A stretch of DNA of 64,000 nt from Devosia sp. XK-2 (lineage in GTDB: Bacteria; Pseudomonadota; Alphaproteobacteria; Rhizobiales; Devosiaceae). The notes below the pieces were generated by a model. That model was given only the letters and a program-made list of their open reading frames with translations, was not told the DNA's origin and did no database searches. Within the stretch, counting starts at the first letter, position 1. Each line of letters begins with the position of its first letter. The stretch is from assembly GCF_037113415.1 (NCBI RefSeq), contig NZ_CP146608.1, positions 2,252,501 through 2,316,500 on the forward strand, written 5' to 3'. Positions 10,578-20,537 of the stretch are shown here, in pieces. The translations under genes were made by a program, and so were the position numbers.

Positions 10578-10750
10578 CAAGTGAGTCGGTCCGGTTAACT
10601 TTTGCGCAAATTGCGACACGCCCCGGTTACGCGTTCACGTCCGATTAACCACGCCAGACCGCCGCAGATCGGGCATTGACAAGCCGCACGCCTTTGCATA
10701 ACCATTCACGCATATAGCTTTTTGGTTATTTTAAAGTGATGGAGACACCA

Positions 10751-11209
10751 ATGACCAGCATCATGCCCTGCCTCTGGTTCGACGACCGGATCGACCAGGC
10801 TATCGAATTTTACACATCGACCTTTAAAAGCGCCAAGGTCCATGACCTCGTGCGCCACGCCCCGGACAAGCCGGCCTTCACCGCCGTTCTCGAACTGGAA
10901 AGCCAGAAATTCCTGCTGCTCAACGGCGGCCCCCGCTTCACCTTCAATGAATCGGTCAGCTTCGTCATAGAGACGGACGGCCAGGAAGAGACCGACTATT
11001 TCTGGGATCGCCTGACCAGCAATGGCGGCGAGGAAAGCATGTGCGCCTGGTGCAAGGACCGCTTCGGCCTCTCCTGGCAGGTCGTGCCCCGCCAACTGAC
11101 CAAGGCCTTGACCGGCCCGGACCGCGAAGGGGCCAATCGCGCCATGCAGGCCATGCTGCAGATGAAGAAGATCGATATTGCAGCCATCGAGAAGGCTTAT
11201 GCCGGCTAA
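10751..11209 (+). CDS. VOC-superfamily protein (PhnB/3-dmu-9_3-mt type)
   Basis: Glyoxalase-fold protein of the 3-demethylubiquinone-9 3-methyltransferase-like domain family (PF06983). Visible marks are the start SIMPCLWFDDRIDQAIEFY and the later FVIETDGQEETDYFWDRL and CAWCKDRFGLSWQVVP. The biochemical activity of these proteins is mostly unknown. The start at 10751 has GGAG six bases upstream; a GTG/ATG pair at 10736/10739 is also in frame. It lies between ftsA and ftsZ on the opposite strand, splitting two genes that are normally adjacent, and converges on ftsA. Confidence 0.88.
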   Translation: MTSIMPCLWFDDRIDQAIEFYTSTFKSAKVHDLVRHAPDKPAFTAVLELESQKFLLLNGGPRFTFNESVSFVIETDGQEETDYFWDRLTSNGGEESMCAWCKDRFGLSWQVVPRQLTKALTGPDREGANRAMQAMLQMKKIDIAAIEKAYAG

Positions 11210-13473: not shown

Positions 13474-14381
13474 CTCGCGTCCTCCACCATCCAGGAGACC
13501 AGTTCTTCAAAGGAATGCCCGGCATAGGCAGCCTGTTCAGGCGCCAGCGACGTCGGCGTCATGCCAGGCTGGGTGTTGATTTCCAGACAGACAAGCTCGC
13601 CATCTTCGCCCGCCGCGTCGTTGTACCGGAAATCGGTCCGTGTCACGCCGCGACAGCCGAATGCCGCATGGGCCTTAAGGCTCAGTTCTTGCACTTTGTC
13701 GTAAATTTTAGGTTTCACCTGCGCCGGAATGATGTGGCGCGACCCGCCTTCGGCATATTTGGCTTCATAATTGTAGAAGGCGAGATCGGTCACGATCTCG
13801 GTCACGCCCAGCGCCACGTCCCCCATCACCGCGCAGGTCAGTTCGCGCCCGGGAATATAGCGCTCCACCATGACCTCCTCGCCCGAATTCCAGTCCTCGC
13901 GGAGGATTTCCTGTGGCGGATGGCTCTGGTCCGCCTTGACAATAAAGACGCCAAAGCTCGATCCGTCGGATATCGGCTTGATCACATAGGGCGGCGCCAT
14001 CACATGGTCTCGCCCCGCCTCGCCGCGAGACACGATCAGGTGATCGGTCACCGGAATACCGGCGGCCTTGAGCATGATCTTGGCCTGGTGCTTGTCCATG
14101 GCCAGTGCGGAAGCAAGAATACCCGAATGCGTATAGGGAATTTGCAGCAGCTCCAGCAGCCCCTGGATCATCCCGCTTTCGCCCGCCGGGCCATGCAGGG
14201 CATTGAAGGCCACATCGGGCTTGAGCGCCTTGAGCACATCAGCCAGGTCCCTTCCGACATCGACTTCGGTGACCATGTAGCCCGCGCGCCTTAGCGCTGC
14301 GGCGCACTCCTTGCCCGAGCTCAGCGAAACGGGACGCTCATTGGACCAGCCCCCCATCAGCACGGCGACGTGTTTGCTCAT
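13461..14381 (-). CDS. ddl: D-alanine--D-alanine ligase
   Basis: ATP-grasp enzyme joining two D-alanines for the peptidoglycan stem. Typical motifs are [36 protein letters not shown], the glycine-rich loop [10 protein letters not shown], and [15 protein letters not shown]. Length 306 is normal. Its start overlaps the murC stop by 4 bases. In most relatives murB lies between murC and ddl; here it does not. Confidence 0.96.
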
Positions 14382-15796: not shown

Positions 15797-16911
15797 GATG
15801 TGGGTCTCCCTTCGACCTGAATGTGTTTGCCGGCCAGCCTTTCGGCGATATCAGCCAGCTTTTCGACCGCACGCGGCTGGCCCAATGCGGCGGCCGCTGC
15901 GGCGGCGCGGCTGAGCCTGTCGGGATCGGTCAGTAATTCCTCAAGCCGAGTGGCAAGCGATTGCGGTGAAAGCGTGGCCTGCTCGGCCACCCAGCCACCG
16001 CCACCCTCTTCCATGAAAAGCGCATTGTACTTCTGGTCCGAGTCCAGCGAACCCGGCAGCGGAATAAGAATGGCCGGACGGCCGATAACGCAGAGCTCGG
16101 TGACCGTCGAGGCCCCTGCCCGCCCGATCACCAGATGCGCATCGGCGATCCGCTCGGGCAGGTCCGAAATAAAACTGGCCAACTCCACGCTGGTGCGCGA
16201 CTGCCGATAGCTCTCGGCCACGCGCTCAATGTCTTCGGCCCGTGCCTGCTGCAAAATCTGCAGCCGATGCCGCAAGGCGTCCGGCAGTAGAGCAATGGCA
16301 GCCGGCACAATGTCGGACAGCGCCCGTGCGCCCTGACTACCGCCGGTGACAACAAGACGAATGCTGCCATTCTTGGTCAAGGCGGGATAGGGCTTGCCTA
16401 CCAGTGGCCGCACCCTGTCACGCACCGGATTGCCGGTCACAATCTTTTCGAGCTTTTGCTGGTCCGCAAAGCGCGTCACCGGAAAGCTCATGGCCAGCAC
16501 ATCGGCAAAGCGCGCCAACGCCCGATTGGCCCGGCCCATCACGGCGTTCTGTTCATGCAGGACGCCCGGAATGCCCAGAAGGTTCGCCGCGATGAACGGC
16601 GGAAAGGTCGGATAGCCGCCAAACCCGATCACCGCATCGGGCCGCACTTTGCGCAAGGCATTCCAGGCCGTGCCAATACCCCGGATGATGGTCAGACCCG
16701 CGCCGAACAGCTTGATCGGATTGGCCCCGGACGGGGTCGCCGCCGGAACAATATGGATCTGCCGGGCCGGAAAATCGGCGCCGTAGCTTTCCACCCGATG
16801 ATCGGTCATCAACTCGACATTATACCCGCGCCGGATCAATTCCTGCGCCAGGGCCATGGCCGGAAACAGGTGTCCGCCTGTACCGCCCGCAATCAGAACA
16901 AAGGTTTTCAT
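15793..16911 (-). CDS. murG: Undecaprenyl-PP-MurNAc-pentapeptide-GlcNAc transferase MurG
   Basis: GT28 glycosyltransferase that makes lipid II from lipid I at the inner face of the membrane. Motifs: [14 protein letters not shown] at the N-terminus, [34 protein letters not shown] and [24 protein letters not shown]. Length 372. It overlaps the ftsW stop by 4 bases and the murC start by 4 bases. Confidence 0.97.
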
Positions 16912-18071
16912 TCGGCGGGGGCTACCACGGCGCTGCGGTAGCTGGGAAGGCCGGTGACCATGCGCTCCTCAGGCTTAGTGCGCGTCAGGGCCAGCATCAG
17001 TCCCATGCCGAACGCCACCGCGATCATCGAGGTGCCGCCATAGGACACGAAAGGCAGCGTCATGCCCTTTGCCGGGATGAGATTGAGATTCACCGCCAGA
17101 TTGATACCCGACTGCATGGCGAACTGCGCCGCCAGCGTCGATGCGCCCAGCCGGGCGAAGAGGCTCGTTTGACGCTGCGCGGCCAGCATGGCGCGAATGG
17201 CAATGAACCCGATCAGCGCCACCAGCCCCATGCAGAACACAATGCCGAATTCACCGGCGGCAGCCGAAAAGACAAAGTCGGCATGCGCATCCGGGATCAG
17301 CCTATTGGCCAGGGACTCGCCCGGCCCCCGCCCGAACCAACCACCCTCCATCAGGGACTGCAGCGCCCTGTCGACCTGATAGGTATTGCCATCCTCGGGA
17401 TTGACGAAACTGTCGATACGCCGGGCAAAGTGCGGAAAGAACGCATAGGCGCCGATCAGGAGACCGCCGGCCGCACCGCCCATCCCGATAATGATCCACC
17501 AGGAAATGCCTGAGAAAAACAACAGCACCGCCCAGGTCGCCATGACCAGCGCCGTCTGCCCCAGATCCGGCTGCAGCAAGAGCGCCCCAACCAGGCTGAG
17601 CATGATCAGCGTGGCAATGGCCCGGCCCGGCACATTGCGATGGATCATGAATTCGGAGAACAGCCAGGCGCCGATCACGGCAAAGGCCGGCTTGACGAAT
17701 TCGGTCGGCTGGATGGTCTGCCCGCCCAGCGAAATCCAGCGCCGCGCGCCCTTGACCTCGGTGCCGAAATGCAGCGTCGCCCAGAGCAGCAGCGTCATCA
17801 CGATCAGCGTGCCCAGGGCCACAAAACGCGCCTGGCGATGGCTCAGAAGCGAGGTCGCCAGCATCACCGGCACCGCCACCACGCTGAACATGGCGTGGCG
17901 GATCACGAAATGCCATTCATCGAGCCCGATGCGCTCGGCCACGGCCGGACTGGCGCCGAAACTGAGCACCACGCCGCAGACCAGCAGCATGATGAGCGCC
18001 CCCAGCAATTCGCGGTCAATCGACCACCACCACTCGGCAAGAGGCGTTTTTTCGGCGCGGGAAAACATCAT
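16908..18071 (-). CDS. ftsW: Lipid II glycosyltransferase FtsW
   Basis: SEDS-family polytopic protein that polymerises lipid II at the septum together with FtsI. About ten membrane segments are seen, with GARRWISLGGQTIQPTEF and the C-terminal PFVSYGGTSM motifs. The frame extends to a TTG at 18116, but the ATG pair at 18071/18068 (MMFSRAEKTPLAEWW) is a more usual start and gives 387 residues. Upstream there are 103 bases before the channel-like gene's stop, so the continuous overlap pattern of the cluster is broken here. Confidence 0.95.
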   Translation of the reverse strand: MMFSRAEKTPLAEWWWSIDRELLGALIMLLVCGVVLSFGASPAVAERIGLDEWHFVIRHAMFSVVAVPVMLATSLLSHRQARFVALGTLIVMTLLLWATLHFGTEVKGARRWISLGGQTIQPTEFVKPAFAVIGAWLFSEFMIHRNVPGRAIATLIMLSLVGALLLQPDLGQTALVMATWAVLLFFSGISWWIIIGMGGAAGGLLIGAYAFFPHFARRIDSFVNPEDGNTYQVDRALQSLMEGGWFGRGPGESLANRLIPDAHADFVFSAAAGEFGIVFCMGLVALIGFIAIRAMLAAQRQTSLFARLGASTLAAQFAMQSGINLAVNLNLIPAKGMTLPFVSYGGTSMIAVAFGMGLMLALTRTKPEERMVTGLPSYRSAVVAPAE

Positions 18072-18174
18072 GGGGAAGGACCGGATACGCGATACAAACT
18101 GTATCGAGTGTATCAATCACTTGGTTACCGATTTGCCAAAGCCTTTGCGTTTTGCGAATCCCGCCCGCAAACAG

Positions 18175-19263
18175 CTACTCGGCAAAATAGCGCCCATAAA
18201 TCTCGTCGATCCGGCCGGCCTCGTGGGCGCCGATCAGGGCAATGGTGAGCGGACGCGCCAATGGGCTGCCGCTGGGCAGGCCGAAGCCATATTTATCCGG
18301 CTCGAAAATGGCGCCGACCACGCTGATGGCCTGTTCGGGATGGCTATGGGCGTAATATTCCAGCACCGGTGCATCGGCAACGATGGCGTCGATCCGCCCC
18401 GCGGTCAGCGCAGCAACGGCGCCTTCGACATCGGCGTAGCGGCGCGGCCGCATTCCCGCATTCTGCAAATAGGTCTCGGCTACGCTCCCCTCGAACGCGC
18501 CCACGGCCTTGCCCGGCAGGTCCGAAACACCATCGATCTCGGTGGTCAGTGCCAGCGTCGTCATCACGCTCGTCACCGAGGAGGTCACATAGGCCAGCAC
18601 AGCCACGCCGCAGACAAGCCACAGCGCCTGCCAGATGCGTCCCAGCCAGCCGAACAGGTTCTTGCGCGACGGTGAGCGCCCCGAGGTCGCCACCGACATC
18701 ACCGTATAAAAACTCTCCGCCACCCCATCGCGCCAGCCCTTGGGGAAATTCTTGTCGAAGCGCCGGTCGAACAGGGTCAGCAGCAGCGTCGCCAAAAGGA
18801 TCACCCCGCCAATCCAGGCATAGGCGCGCAAATGGCCTGATGTGGCCAGGCCCTGCACGATGCTCCAGAAGCTTGCGCCGGCATCGTCATGCACCATCAC
18901 CCGCAGCCCCGCATCGAACCAGGGATGGGTAAACTCGATCCGCTCGGCCCGGTCCCGGGTGATCGTGAGATTAGTGACTGCGACATCGACGGCGGACGTC
19001 TCGGTGGCGGTCACCAGCGCCGACAGCGTCGGGAAAACCTCGTAATTATAGGCAAGGCCAAGCTCGTCGGCCAAAAGCGTCCACAGATCGATGGCCATGC
19101 CGGTATAGGCGCCATCCTGTTCCATGACGAAAGGCGGGCTGAGATAGAGCCCGACCGCCAGCCGCTCGTCCCCGTCCGGCCCCGCCTCCAGCTCCTGCGC
19201 CGCAATGGGGCCGTAGAGCGCCAACAAGGCAAGCAGCACAATGGAGCGAAAAAGGGCGATCAT
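18175..19263 (-). CDS. Ionotropic glutamate receptor-like channel / substrate-binding-domain protein
   Basis: 362 residues with the layout of bacterial GluR0-type receptors. In order: a signal peptide (1-22), the first half of a periplasmic binding lobe (about 33-130, with TRDRAERIEFTHPW), a membrane helix (148-166), a pore-loop-like stretch (183-197), a second membrane helix (207-235), and the second binding lobe (245-360, with AIVADAPVLEYY). The pore loop reads TVMSVATSGRSP where potassium-type relatives have TVGYGD, so the selectivity filter is not conserved. The post-pore helix ends YVTSSVTSVMTT, the position of the SYTANLAAF motif in animal receptors. Ligand and ion are unknown. It could instead be a solute-binding protein with membrane segments and no channel activity. 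It occupies the place where murD usually lies. Confidence 0.82.
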   Translation of the reverse strand: MIALFRSIVLLALLALYGPIAAQELEAGPDGDERLAVGLYLSPPFVMEQDGAYTGMAIDLWTLLADELGLAYNYEVFPTLSALVTATETSAVDVAVTNLTITRDRAERIEFTHPWFDAGLRVMVHDDAGASFWSIVQGLATSGHLRAYAWIGGVILLATLLLTLFDRRFDKNFPKGWRDGVAESFYTVMSVATSGRSPSRKNLFGWLGRIWQALWLVCGVAVLAYVTSSVTSVMTTLALTTEIDGVSDLPGKAVGAFEGSVAETYLQNAGMRPRRYADVEGAVAALTAGRIDAIVADAPVLEYYAHSHPEQAISVVGAIFEPDKYGFGLPSGSPLARPLTIALIGAHEAGRIDEIYGRYFAE

Positions 19264-19353
19264 GGGCAGGCGATAACGTCCCCGGCGCGGCTGGCATTAT
19301 GGTGGTGCCATCAGCCTAGCAACTCACTCCCGGCACGGCCACCCTTGCCACAA

Positions 19354-19441
19354 AGCGTTTCCAGCAAAAGTGGTCACGGTTTTGCGGTTCGGAAACGCAA
19401 CAAACAAGCGCTTAGAGCAATTTCGACGTTTCAACGAAACG
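19354..19441. repeat. Hyphomicrobiales-type intergenic palindrome
   Basis: GCGTTTCC (19355-19362) pairs with GGAAACGC (19391-19398), followed by a CAAACAAGCGCTTAGAGC-like tail and a second small hairpin, CGTTTC-AAC-GAAACG (19427-19441). From memory, very similar sequence is widespread between genes in this order. It fills the gap between mraY and the channel-like gene. Confidence 0.6.
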
Positions 19442-19451
19442 GTGAAATGCC

Positions 19452-20537
19452 CTAACGCAATTTCAGGCTCGACAGACCGATCAGCGCCAAAACGAAGGAA
19501 ATGATCCAGAACCGGATCACCACCTGGCTTTCGGTCCAGCCCAGATGCTCGAAATGGTGGTGGATCGGCGCCATGCGGAAGACCCGCTTACCCGTCAGCC
19601 GGAACGAGGTCACCTGCACGATCACCGACACGGTCTCGAGCACAAAGAGCCCGCCGATAATGGCCAGCACGATTTCATGCTTGGTCGCCACGGCAATGGT
19701 GCCCAGGGCGCCGCCCAGGGCCAACGAGCCGGTATCGCCCATGAAAATCTGCGCCGGCGGCGCGTTGAACCACAAAAAGCCAAGCCCGGCCCCGATCAGC
19801 GCCCCACAGACCACGGAGAGTTCCGCCGTACCGGGGACGGCATTGAGCAGCAGATAGTCGGCATAGTTCTGCGAACCCACGAGATAAGCGATCAGCCCGA
19901 AACAGGCCGCCGCTACCATCACCGGCACGATAGCCAGACCATCGAGCCCGTCGGTCAGGTTCACCGAATTGCCCGCCGCCACGACTACAAAGCCGCCGAA
20001 CAGAATGTAGAAATAGCCCAGATTGACCGCCAGATCCTTGACGAAGGGGAATAGCAGCGAGGTGCCATAGGAGCCCGAGGCCAGTTGCGAGATGAAGAAG
20101 GCCGCAATGCCGCCGATCAGCGCTTCCAGGATCAACCTTTGTTTCGAGCCGAAACCGGCATGGCTCATGCGCTTGACCTTGAGATAGTCGTCGTAAAAGC
20201 CAATGGCGCCAAAGCCGACCGTGACGAACAGCACCACCCAGACATAGCCATTGGTCAGGTTCGACCAGAGCAGCGTCGAGATCACCGCACCCGAAAGGAT
20301 CATCAACCCGCCCATGGTGGGCGTGCCCTTCTTGGTCAGCAGGTGCCCGGCCGGCCCGTCCTCGCGGATCGGCTGCCCCCGGCCCTGCTTGACGCGCAAC
20401 AGCGCGATCATGCCCGGCCCGAACAGGAACACGAAGAATAGCGCCGTCACCACCGCGCCGGCGGTGCGAAACGTGATGTACCGGAACACATTGAAGGCGG
20501 CGAGCTGCTCACCCAATTGGCCAAGGAAATAGAGCAT
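19452..20537 (-). CDS. mraY: Phospho-MurNAc-pentapeptide translocase MraY
   Basis: Transfers phospho-MurNAc-pentapeptide to undecaprenyl phosphate, making lipid I. Ten membrane segments are apparent. The active-site motifs [35 protein letters not shown] and the histidine cluster [14 protein letters not shown] are intact. Length 361 is normal. It follows murF after 26 bases. Downstream comes an intergenic repeat and then the channel-like gene, where murD would be expected. Confidence 0.97.

Follow-up and report, generated by a model that had tools for sequence, protein, structure and literature searches.

The window, that is, the whole stretch of 64,000 nucleotides analysed here, covers positions 2252501-2316500 of a 3.80-Mb single-contig genome and contains a division cluster. 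Its division genes lie on the minus strand in the order ftsI, murE, murF, mraY, the channel gene described below, ftsW, murG, murC, ddl, ftsQ, ftsA and ftsZ, where mraY and ftsW were identified by family models and the other names were read from translations. The open reading frame between mraY and ftsW is the one that the sequence-only reading had pointed out; it is read on the minus strand, in the same direction as the division genes, and encodes a protein similar to ionotropic glutamate receptors (iGluRs). The gene, its parts and its two neighbours are as follows:

18175 to 19263, minus strand: iGluR-like channel gene, 362 aa, ATG start, TAG stop (open reading frame, Pfam and PDB matches).
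19198 to 19263, minus strand: probable signal peptide, residues 1-22 (called by hydropathy from the hydrophobic segment 1-26).
18883 to 19167, minus strand: S1, first half of the ligand-binding domain, residues 33-127, with T100 and R105 (Pfam and PDB alignment).
18757 to 18834, minus strand: M1 helix, residues 144-169 (hydropathy).
18661 to 18717, minus strand: pore helix and filter, residues 183-201, with T-S-G-R at 193-196 (alignment columns and pore-only profile; loop shape putative).
18553 to 18648, minus strand: M3 helix, residues 206-237, with YVTSSVTSVMTT (alignment, pore-only profile and hydropathy).
18181 to 18546, minus strand: S2, second half of the ligand-binding domain, residues 240-361, with S260, V261 and D297 (Pfam and PDB alignment).
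19452 to 20537, minus strand: mraY, upstream neighbour (family model).
16908 to 18116, minus strand: ftsW, downstream neighbour, with a TTG start as listed (family model; most relatives' matches start at most 17 residues from it).

Elsewhere in the cluster, the interval between ftsZ and ftsA holds an antisense 3-dmu-9_3-mt (PhnB-like) gene (10736-11209). The usual place of murB is between murC and ddl; in the window these two genes overlap by 4 bp (14378-14381), leaving no space for it, and about 1 kb lies between them in genomes G044 and G123.

The order of signal peptide, half lobe, M1 helix, pore segment, M3 helix and half lobe proposed by the sequence-only reading is borne out, at the level of sequence, by Pfam, PDB and hydropathy. 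Kyte-Doolittle hydropathy of the protein gave segments 1-26, 144-169 and 206-239. Pfam SBP_bac_3 matched residues 41-361 (1.8e-19), spanning around a membrane insert at 144-239, and further matches were found to Lig_chan-Glu_bd (3.9e-10) and Lig_chan (4.2e-5, or 23.8 bits, under the curated cut-off of 30.8). When the family members were scanned singly at E<=0.001, SBP_bac_3 and Lig_chan-Glu_bd were each found in 62 of 62 and Lig_chan in 61 of 62. The Pfam and NCBIfam matches of the window's protein included no Mur ligase family. In the PDB search, plant GLR3.4 aligned over a single unbroken stretch (residues 78-359, 6.5e-21), and the alignment of the family profile ran uninterrupted from lobe through pore to lobe in GLR3.4 and in eukaryotic GluN3A and GluA2. 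The Pfam, NCBIfam and PDB searches are concordant in describing a type-3 solute-binding protein split by an iGluR-like membrane block. By sequence, the protein has the split type-3 solute-binding lobes, the S1 Arg and S2 Asp, and the M1/pore/M3 homology of the iGluR superfamily, the pore match being weak. The gene is real, and its prokaryotic iGluR layout is confirmed.

The segment SVATSGRSP occupies residues 190-198, and YVTSSVTSVMTT occupies residues 225-236. A TVGYGD-like potassium filter is absent, T-S-G-R standing in the window's protein, and the filter columns of the 54 core rows of the alignment rule out, as far as sequence goes, a K+ filter of the GluR0 type. G195 is invariant in these rows, as are Arg200 and, at the end of M3, Thr235; at position 196, 38 rows have K, 14 have R and 2 have T. 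Since the invariant glycine is followed by K or R in 52 of 54 rows, the filter is no peculiarity of the window's gene. The earlier reading was right that the filter is unlike that of a potassium channel, but wrong to call it altered, because T-S-G-K/R is the norm of the clade.

This normal filter brings the protein nearer to the 'Group 2' of Ger et al. 2010 (PMC2950845) than to GluR0. In the portion of that paper available, 'Group 2' has the same S1-M1-P-M-S2 order, an invariant S1 Arg and S2 Asp, a non-K+ P region and signs of horizontal transfer, whereas neither a T-S-G-K/R filter nor a location in a division cluster is mentioned in that portion. By these features, rather than by placement with the 10 published sequences, the window's protein would come under the 'Group 2' definition as the available text gives it, and on its sequence it stands as a further member of the published prokaryotic iGluR kind. 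GluR0 of Synechocystis (Slr1257; 1II5, 1IIT) shares the domain order, the S1 Arg and S2 Asp and a ligand-binding domain match of 4.5e-16, but its filter is of the K+ type according to the same portion of PMC2950845. The 'GluR0 design' of the earlier reading is thus upheld for the domain order and not for the filter. The best PDB match was 2PYY (9.2e-33), a bacterial iGluR homologue that we take to be from Nostoc. Its ligand-binding columns align, R and D included, but it is a 228-residue chain without the pore block and has G-S-T, with Thr at V261, where the channel family mostly has G-S-V. Beside the unbroken alignment, plant GLR3.4 has the M3 T-x-S-x-T-S pattern in common with the window's protein, which differs from eukaryotic iGluRs in having neither an amino-terminal domain nor M4 and in its low pore similarity.

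The ligand pocket is conserved as well. All 54 core rows carry R105 and 53 of them D297, and both residues align with 2PYY; one S1 Arg and one S2 Asp are the binding residues of prokaryotic iGluRs in the available part of Ger et al. (PMC2950845). Position 261 is Val in 45 rows, Thr in 5, Ser in 2, Ile in 1 and Met in 1, and the full T/S-R-S-V-D set is present in 36 of 54. Going by the GluN1 sequence rather than by an alignment with it, T100, R105, S260, V261 and D297 appear to match T518, R523, S688, V689 and D732 of GluN1. These GluN1 residues contact glycine or D-serine, as given in the part of PMC7596085 available. The pocket, so read, weakly suggests a likeness to the GluN1 glycine/D-serine site and a small neutral amino acid as ligand.

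Matches at E<=1e-10 were found in 30 of 136 family genomes, the window's included, of which 21 are close (the window and 20 at 45-65% identity) and the other 9 more remote (25-30%). In the order-level sample, 42 of 397 genomes reached E<=1e-50; in the class-level sample, 5 of 385 reached E<=1e-30, again with the window's included. The scan of named genomes, which can pick up only close relatives, yielded 36 loci; their titles point mostly to Hyphomicrobiales and also to Luteimonas, Microbulbifer, Mesopusillimonas and Synechococcus. At E<=1e-30 the gene is found on 20 plasmid records, of which 9 are typed as conjugative, and no match to it was found in the phage collection. In a quick gene tree of 62 rows the Devosiaceae copies are spread over more than one group and intermingle with those of Phyllobacteriaceae, Stappiaceae and Lysobacteraceae; no starred placement was obtained for the window's copy, which lies outside the starred six-row clade that holds the copy of G123. 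Left out of the tree were L037, which is partial, and L132, the copy of G011, which has an in-frame TGA and therefore may be decaying. The seven close pairs tried gave dN/dS of 0.08-0.27, so the protein is constrained by purifying selection. The family is a conserved, mobile and mainly alphaproteobacterial clade. Among the papers listed by a literature search that covered subscription journals thinly, none dealt with this clade in division clusters, judging by titles and abstract openings, a weak negative. Separately, members on large Salmonella enterica plasmids (records H15-H18, about 44% identity) are annotated only as substrate-binding protein.

The gene and its flanks show three features that bear on how it came to lie in the cluster:

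18161 to 19455, minus strand: inserted stretch, edges +/- about 10 bp; blastn (E<=1e-3) showed nothing homologous to it in the corresponding interval of 8 genus relatives.
19350 to 19455, minus strand: dispersed palindromic repeat of about 105 bp with two hairpins, starting from the mraY stop codon (39 genome matches including itself, E<=1e-3).
18147 to 18160, minus strand: conserved, near-palindromic leader GAYTCGCAAAACGC upstream of ftsW, found in 8 of the 8 relatives compared and intact after the insertion.

In the 8 relatives aligned, homology stops at the mraY stop and restarts about 14 bp beyond the stop of the channel gene, just before the leader, which is possibly an ftsW promoter or regulator site. 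A 126-base stretch with the repeat has a folding z-score of -3.1 as DNA, and about half of the repeat is found no more than about 10 bp from the channel gene end in L122, L123 and L124, which belong to one clade. The repeat resembles, we presume, the Brucella-type repeats; a literature search on Bru-RS repeats found nothing useful. No Rfam match was found in 17800-19800 at E<=0.1, and a promoter and terminator scan gave one promoter-like site, inside the gene (0.4 in shuffles), and two terminator-like sites (2.3 in shuffles). The channel gene resembles its neighbours in GC3 (0.796) and GC (0.639), and its composition thus shows no trace of recent arrival.

The gap between mraY and ftsW is larger than 600 bp in 47 of the 117 genomes with the two genes as neighbours on one contig, a count that excludes genomes with the two on different contigs as well as G046 and G124, where they are far apart. 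Of these 47 large gaps, two hold the channel (the window and G123, from different genera), 39 hold other identified cargo and six matched no query. Besides the window's gap, 46 occupied gaps were examined (L074-L119). A DUF4394 gene is present in 27 of the 46, accompanied in 13 of the 27 by an ECF sigma/anti-sigma (RskA-type) pair and in one of these 13 also by VapBC; further cargo comprises VapBC or VapC in 5, two unnamed genes in 3 and 2, and mfd- and recG-type genes in 2. The gap of G123 holds an LprI-type gene together with the channel. Among the closest relatives by FtsW (91-94%), the slot is empty in G079 and holds DUF4394 and sigma genes in G077, G029 and G024. Since the gap hosts unrelated genes in relatives, the gap position by itself does not tie the channel to cell division. 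The earlier reading had weighed against itself a random insertion in this strain only, and the synteny survey came close to that: the gene is present in 12 of the 75 genomes of the genus and lies in the gap only in the window's genome. The gap of G123, from another genus, also holds a channel. We consider it likely that the locus holds a prokaryotic channel of the iGluR type with a non-potassium filter, which spreads horizontally as a single gene and was here inserted in a permissive mraY-ftsW gap.

A different explanation is that the channel was selected for its place with division and envelope genes, where it would sense an amino acid from wall turnover and its ion flux would inform septum or lipid II synthesis. 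In support of this, the recurrence extends beyond the gap: in G022 and G044 the gene is found in antisense orientation in the ftsZ-ftsA interval, and in Bauldia litoralis it lies between recN and ligA, downstream of ftsZ-lpxC (names read from translations). When 91 homologue loci were searched with division and envelope proteins, 5 were positive, 2 of them the same Bauldia locus. After clustering of 85 loci and the window at 75-80% identity, 4 of 48-52 clusters fell in the extended ftsZ-dcw / lpxC-ligA supercluster of about 24 kb, compared with 0.26-0.28 expected for uniform insertion over an assumed 4.5 Mb. L138 and L139, duplicates of L041 and L039, are retained in the 91-locus and clustering counts. 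Without the index case, P was 0.002-0.003 at 75-80%, 0.02 at 70% and 0.0004-0.0008 at 90-99%, under a criterion that is post hoc and with clusters as a rough proxy for events. The recurrence in the extended division/envelope cluster is above the uniform expectation, so purely random insertion would not explain it, and we regard it as a lead. On the other hand, 86 of the 91 homologue loci have no division or envelope genes in flanks of up to about 6 kb, Devosiaceae are over-sampled, the region is permissive to other cargo, the antisense copies of G022 and G044 run against their neighbours, and within the genus the gap position is confined to the window's genome. Selection for this place therefore seems unlikely to us. 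As a separate observation, the ftsZ-ftsA interval of G022 and G044 holds other genes beside the channel, including a CorA-type gene in G022.

An LprI-type gene abutting the channel gene in G123 and Mesopusillimonas could also favour a role in the envelope, since the LprI family is named after a lysozyme inhibitor. LprI-type (PF07007) genes were found in 6 of 63 homologue loci (L058, L060, L061, L062, L069 and L126; none in the window) and in 2 of 6 plasmid loci. A protein of about 198 aa (p198) also recurs near the channel in L058, L060, L129, L158, L159 and L160, Agrobacterium plasmids included; it is hydrophobic, with several helices by eye, and the three members scanned gave no Pfam match. 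The genes are located as follows:

L126 5807-6223, L061 7065-7529, L058 490-972, L060 1566-1967, L159 2964-3377 and L160 2833-3342: LprI-type genes next to the channel or not far from it, from several orders and also from Agrobacterium plasmids.
L060 3215-3808, L058 2143-2730, L129 5274-5870 and in L158-L160: p198 genes.

LprI looked promising as a partner, but any LprI gene is present in only 12 of 21 carrier genomes at E<=1e-5 and missing from the other 9. For p198, 58 of 397 order-level genomes match at E<=1e-20 and 12 have both genes; the two are adjacent only in G121 and mostly on different contigs in the others, and p198 is therefore no general partner.

It is quite improbable, in our estimate, that the protein is no channel and instead a membrane-anchored solute-binding protein that serves an ABC permease or a sensor, with its helices as mere anchors. 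SBP_bac_3 is indeed its strongest Pfam match, and annotated plasmid records say transporter substrate-binding domain protein. GlnH-type periplasmic binding proteins share the ligand-binding lobes (NCBIfam GlnH, 2.5e-32, yet 112.6 bits against a cut-off of 303), but in the window's protein the lobes are broken by the membrane pore block, so that the helices lie between the half lobes rather than at a terminus. Unlike a mere anchor, the membrane block (144-239) is the most conserved part of the protein, with a mean majority-residue fraction of 0.80 over the 54 core rows compared with 0.66 for S1 and 0.65 for S2. The pore-only profile searched against the PDB (E<=10) had iGluR pores as its best matches, ranked first and making up 7 of the 10 matches listed, with a weak best E of 0.012; Lmo2059, presumably a K+ channel, was also among these ten. 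Moreover, no permease is consistently adjacent. Over 54 loci no conserved neighbour was found, the commonest neighbour cluster occurring in 7, with one member an ABC ATPase by Pfam. Of 53 loci, 3 have a co-directional gene within 60 nt on the upstream side and 9 on the downstream side, by a rough count that missed at least one small upstream gene (L058).

The usual place of murD is between mraY and ftsW, and murD is missing from the cluster in the window, yet a replacement of murD by the channel gene, with the MurD step lost or rebuilt, is refuted by an intact distant copy (full-length, 314 kb away at G000:C1:2586236-2587492, the sole MurD over the curated cut-off in the genome) and by a distance of at least 49.6 kb between murD and mraY in each of the 57 family genomes where the two share a contig. 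These 57 come from the 123 family genomes in which murD was found at E<=1e-60; 4 of the 123 rows had no mraY match and were not entered. The family-wide distance means that the channel gene did not displace murD and that the absence of murD from the cluster predates the insertion. What is left of the 'murD place' of the earlier reading is a location between mraY and ftsW, and the link to lipid II synthesis that it drew from position is not supported, with murD far off wherever the distance could be measured in the family and the gap cargo changing.

For the horizontally spread channel that we favour, four subunits would assemble in the inner membrane into a channel of the inverted pore-loop type. 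A periplasmic amino acid would bind in the clamshell, where Arg105 would hold its carboxylate and Asp297 its amine. The ligand would close the lobes, the linkers would then pull M3, and a pore that is not K+-selective would open. We infer the tetramer, gating and ion conduction from homology, and the ligand class and physiological role are to be read in the same conditional way. In this strain, the gene and about 190 bp of upstream DNA starting with the dispersed repeat would have been placed in the mraY-ftsW gap.

A more far-reaching version of this channel, which we regard as a long shot, is that the widespread clade comprises NMDA-receptor-like channels gated by glycine or D-amino acids, with a basic ring at the filter exit, possibly weakly cation-selective or even anion-permeable, which read free Gly or D-Ala from wall remodelling and are for that reason repeatedly kept in the division/envelope cluster. 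If this were true, L-glutamate would not be the main agonist. For the family, the slot without murD accepts foreign genes within a cluster that is otherwise essential, so inference from neighbouring genes fails at this place. To our knowledge, what is known of the function of bacterial iGluRs rests largely on the K+-selective GluR0. A conserved, partly plasmid-borne clade with a non-K+ filter and a putatively GluN1-like pocket would offer a compact model for the origin of iGluR selectivity.
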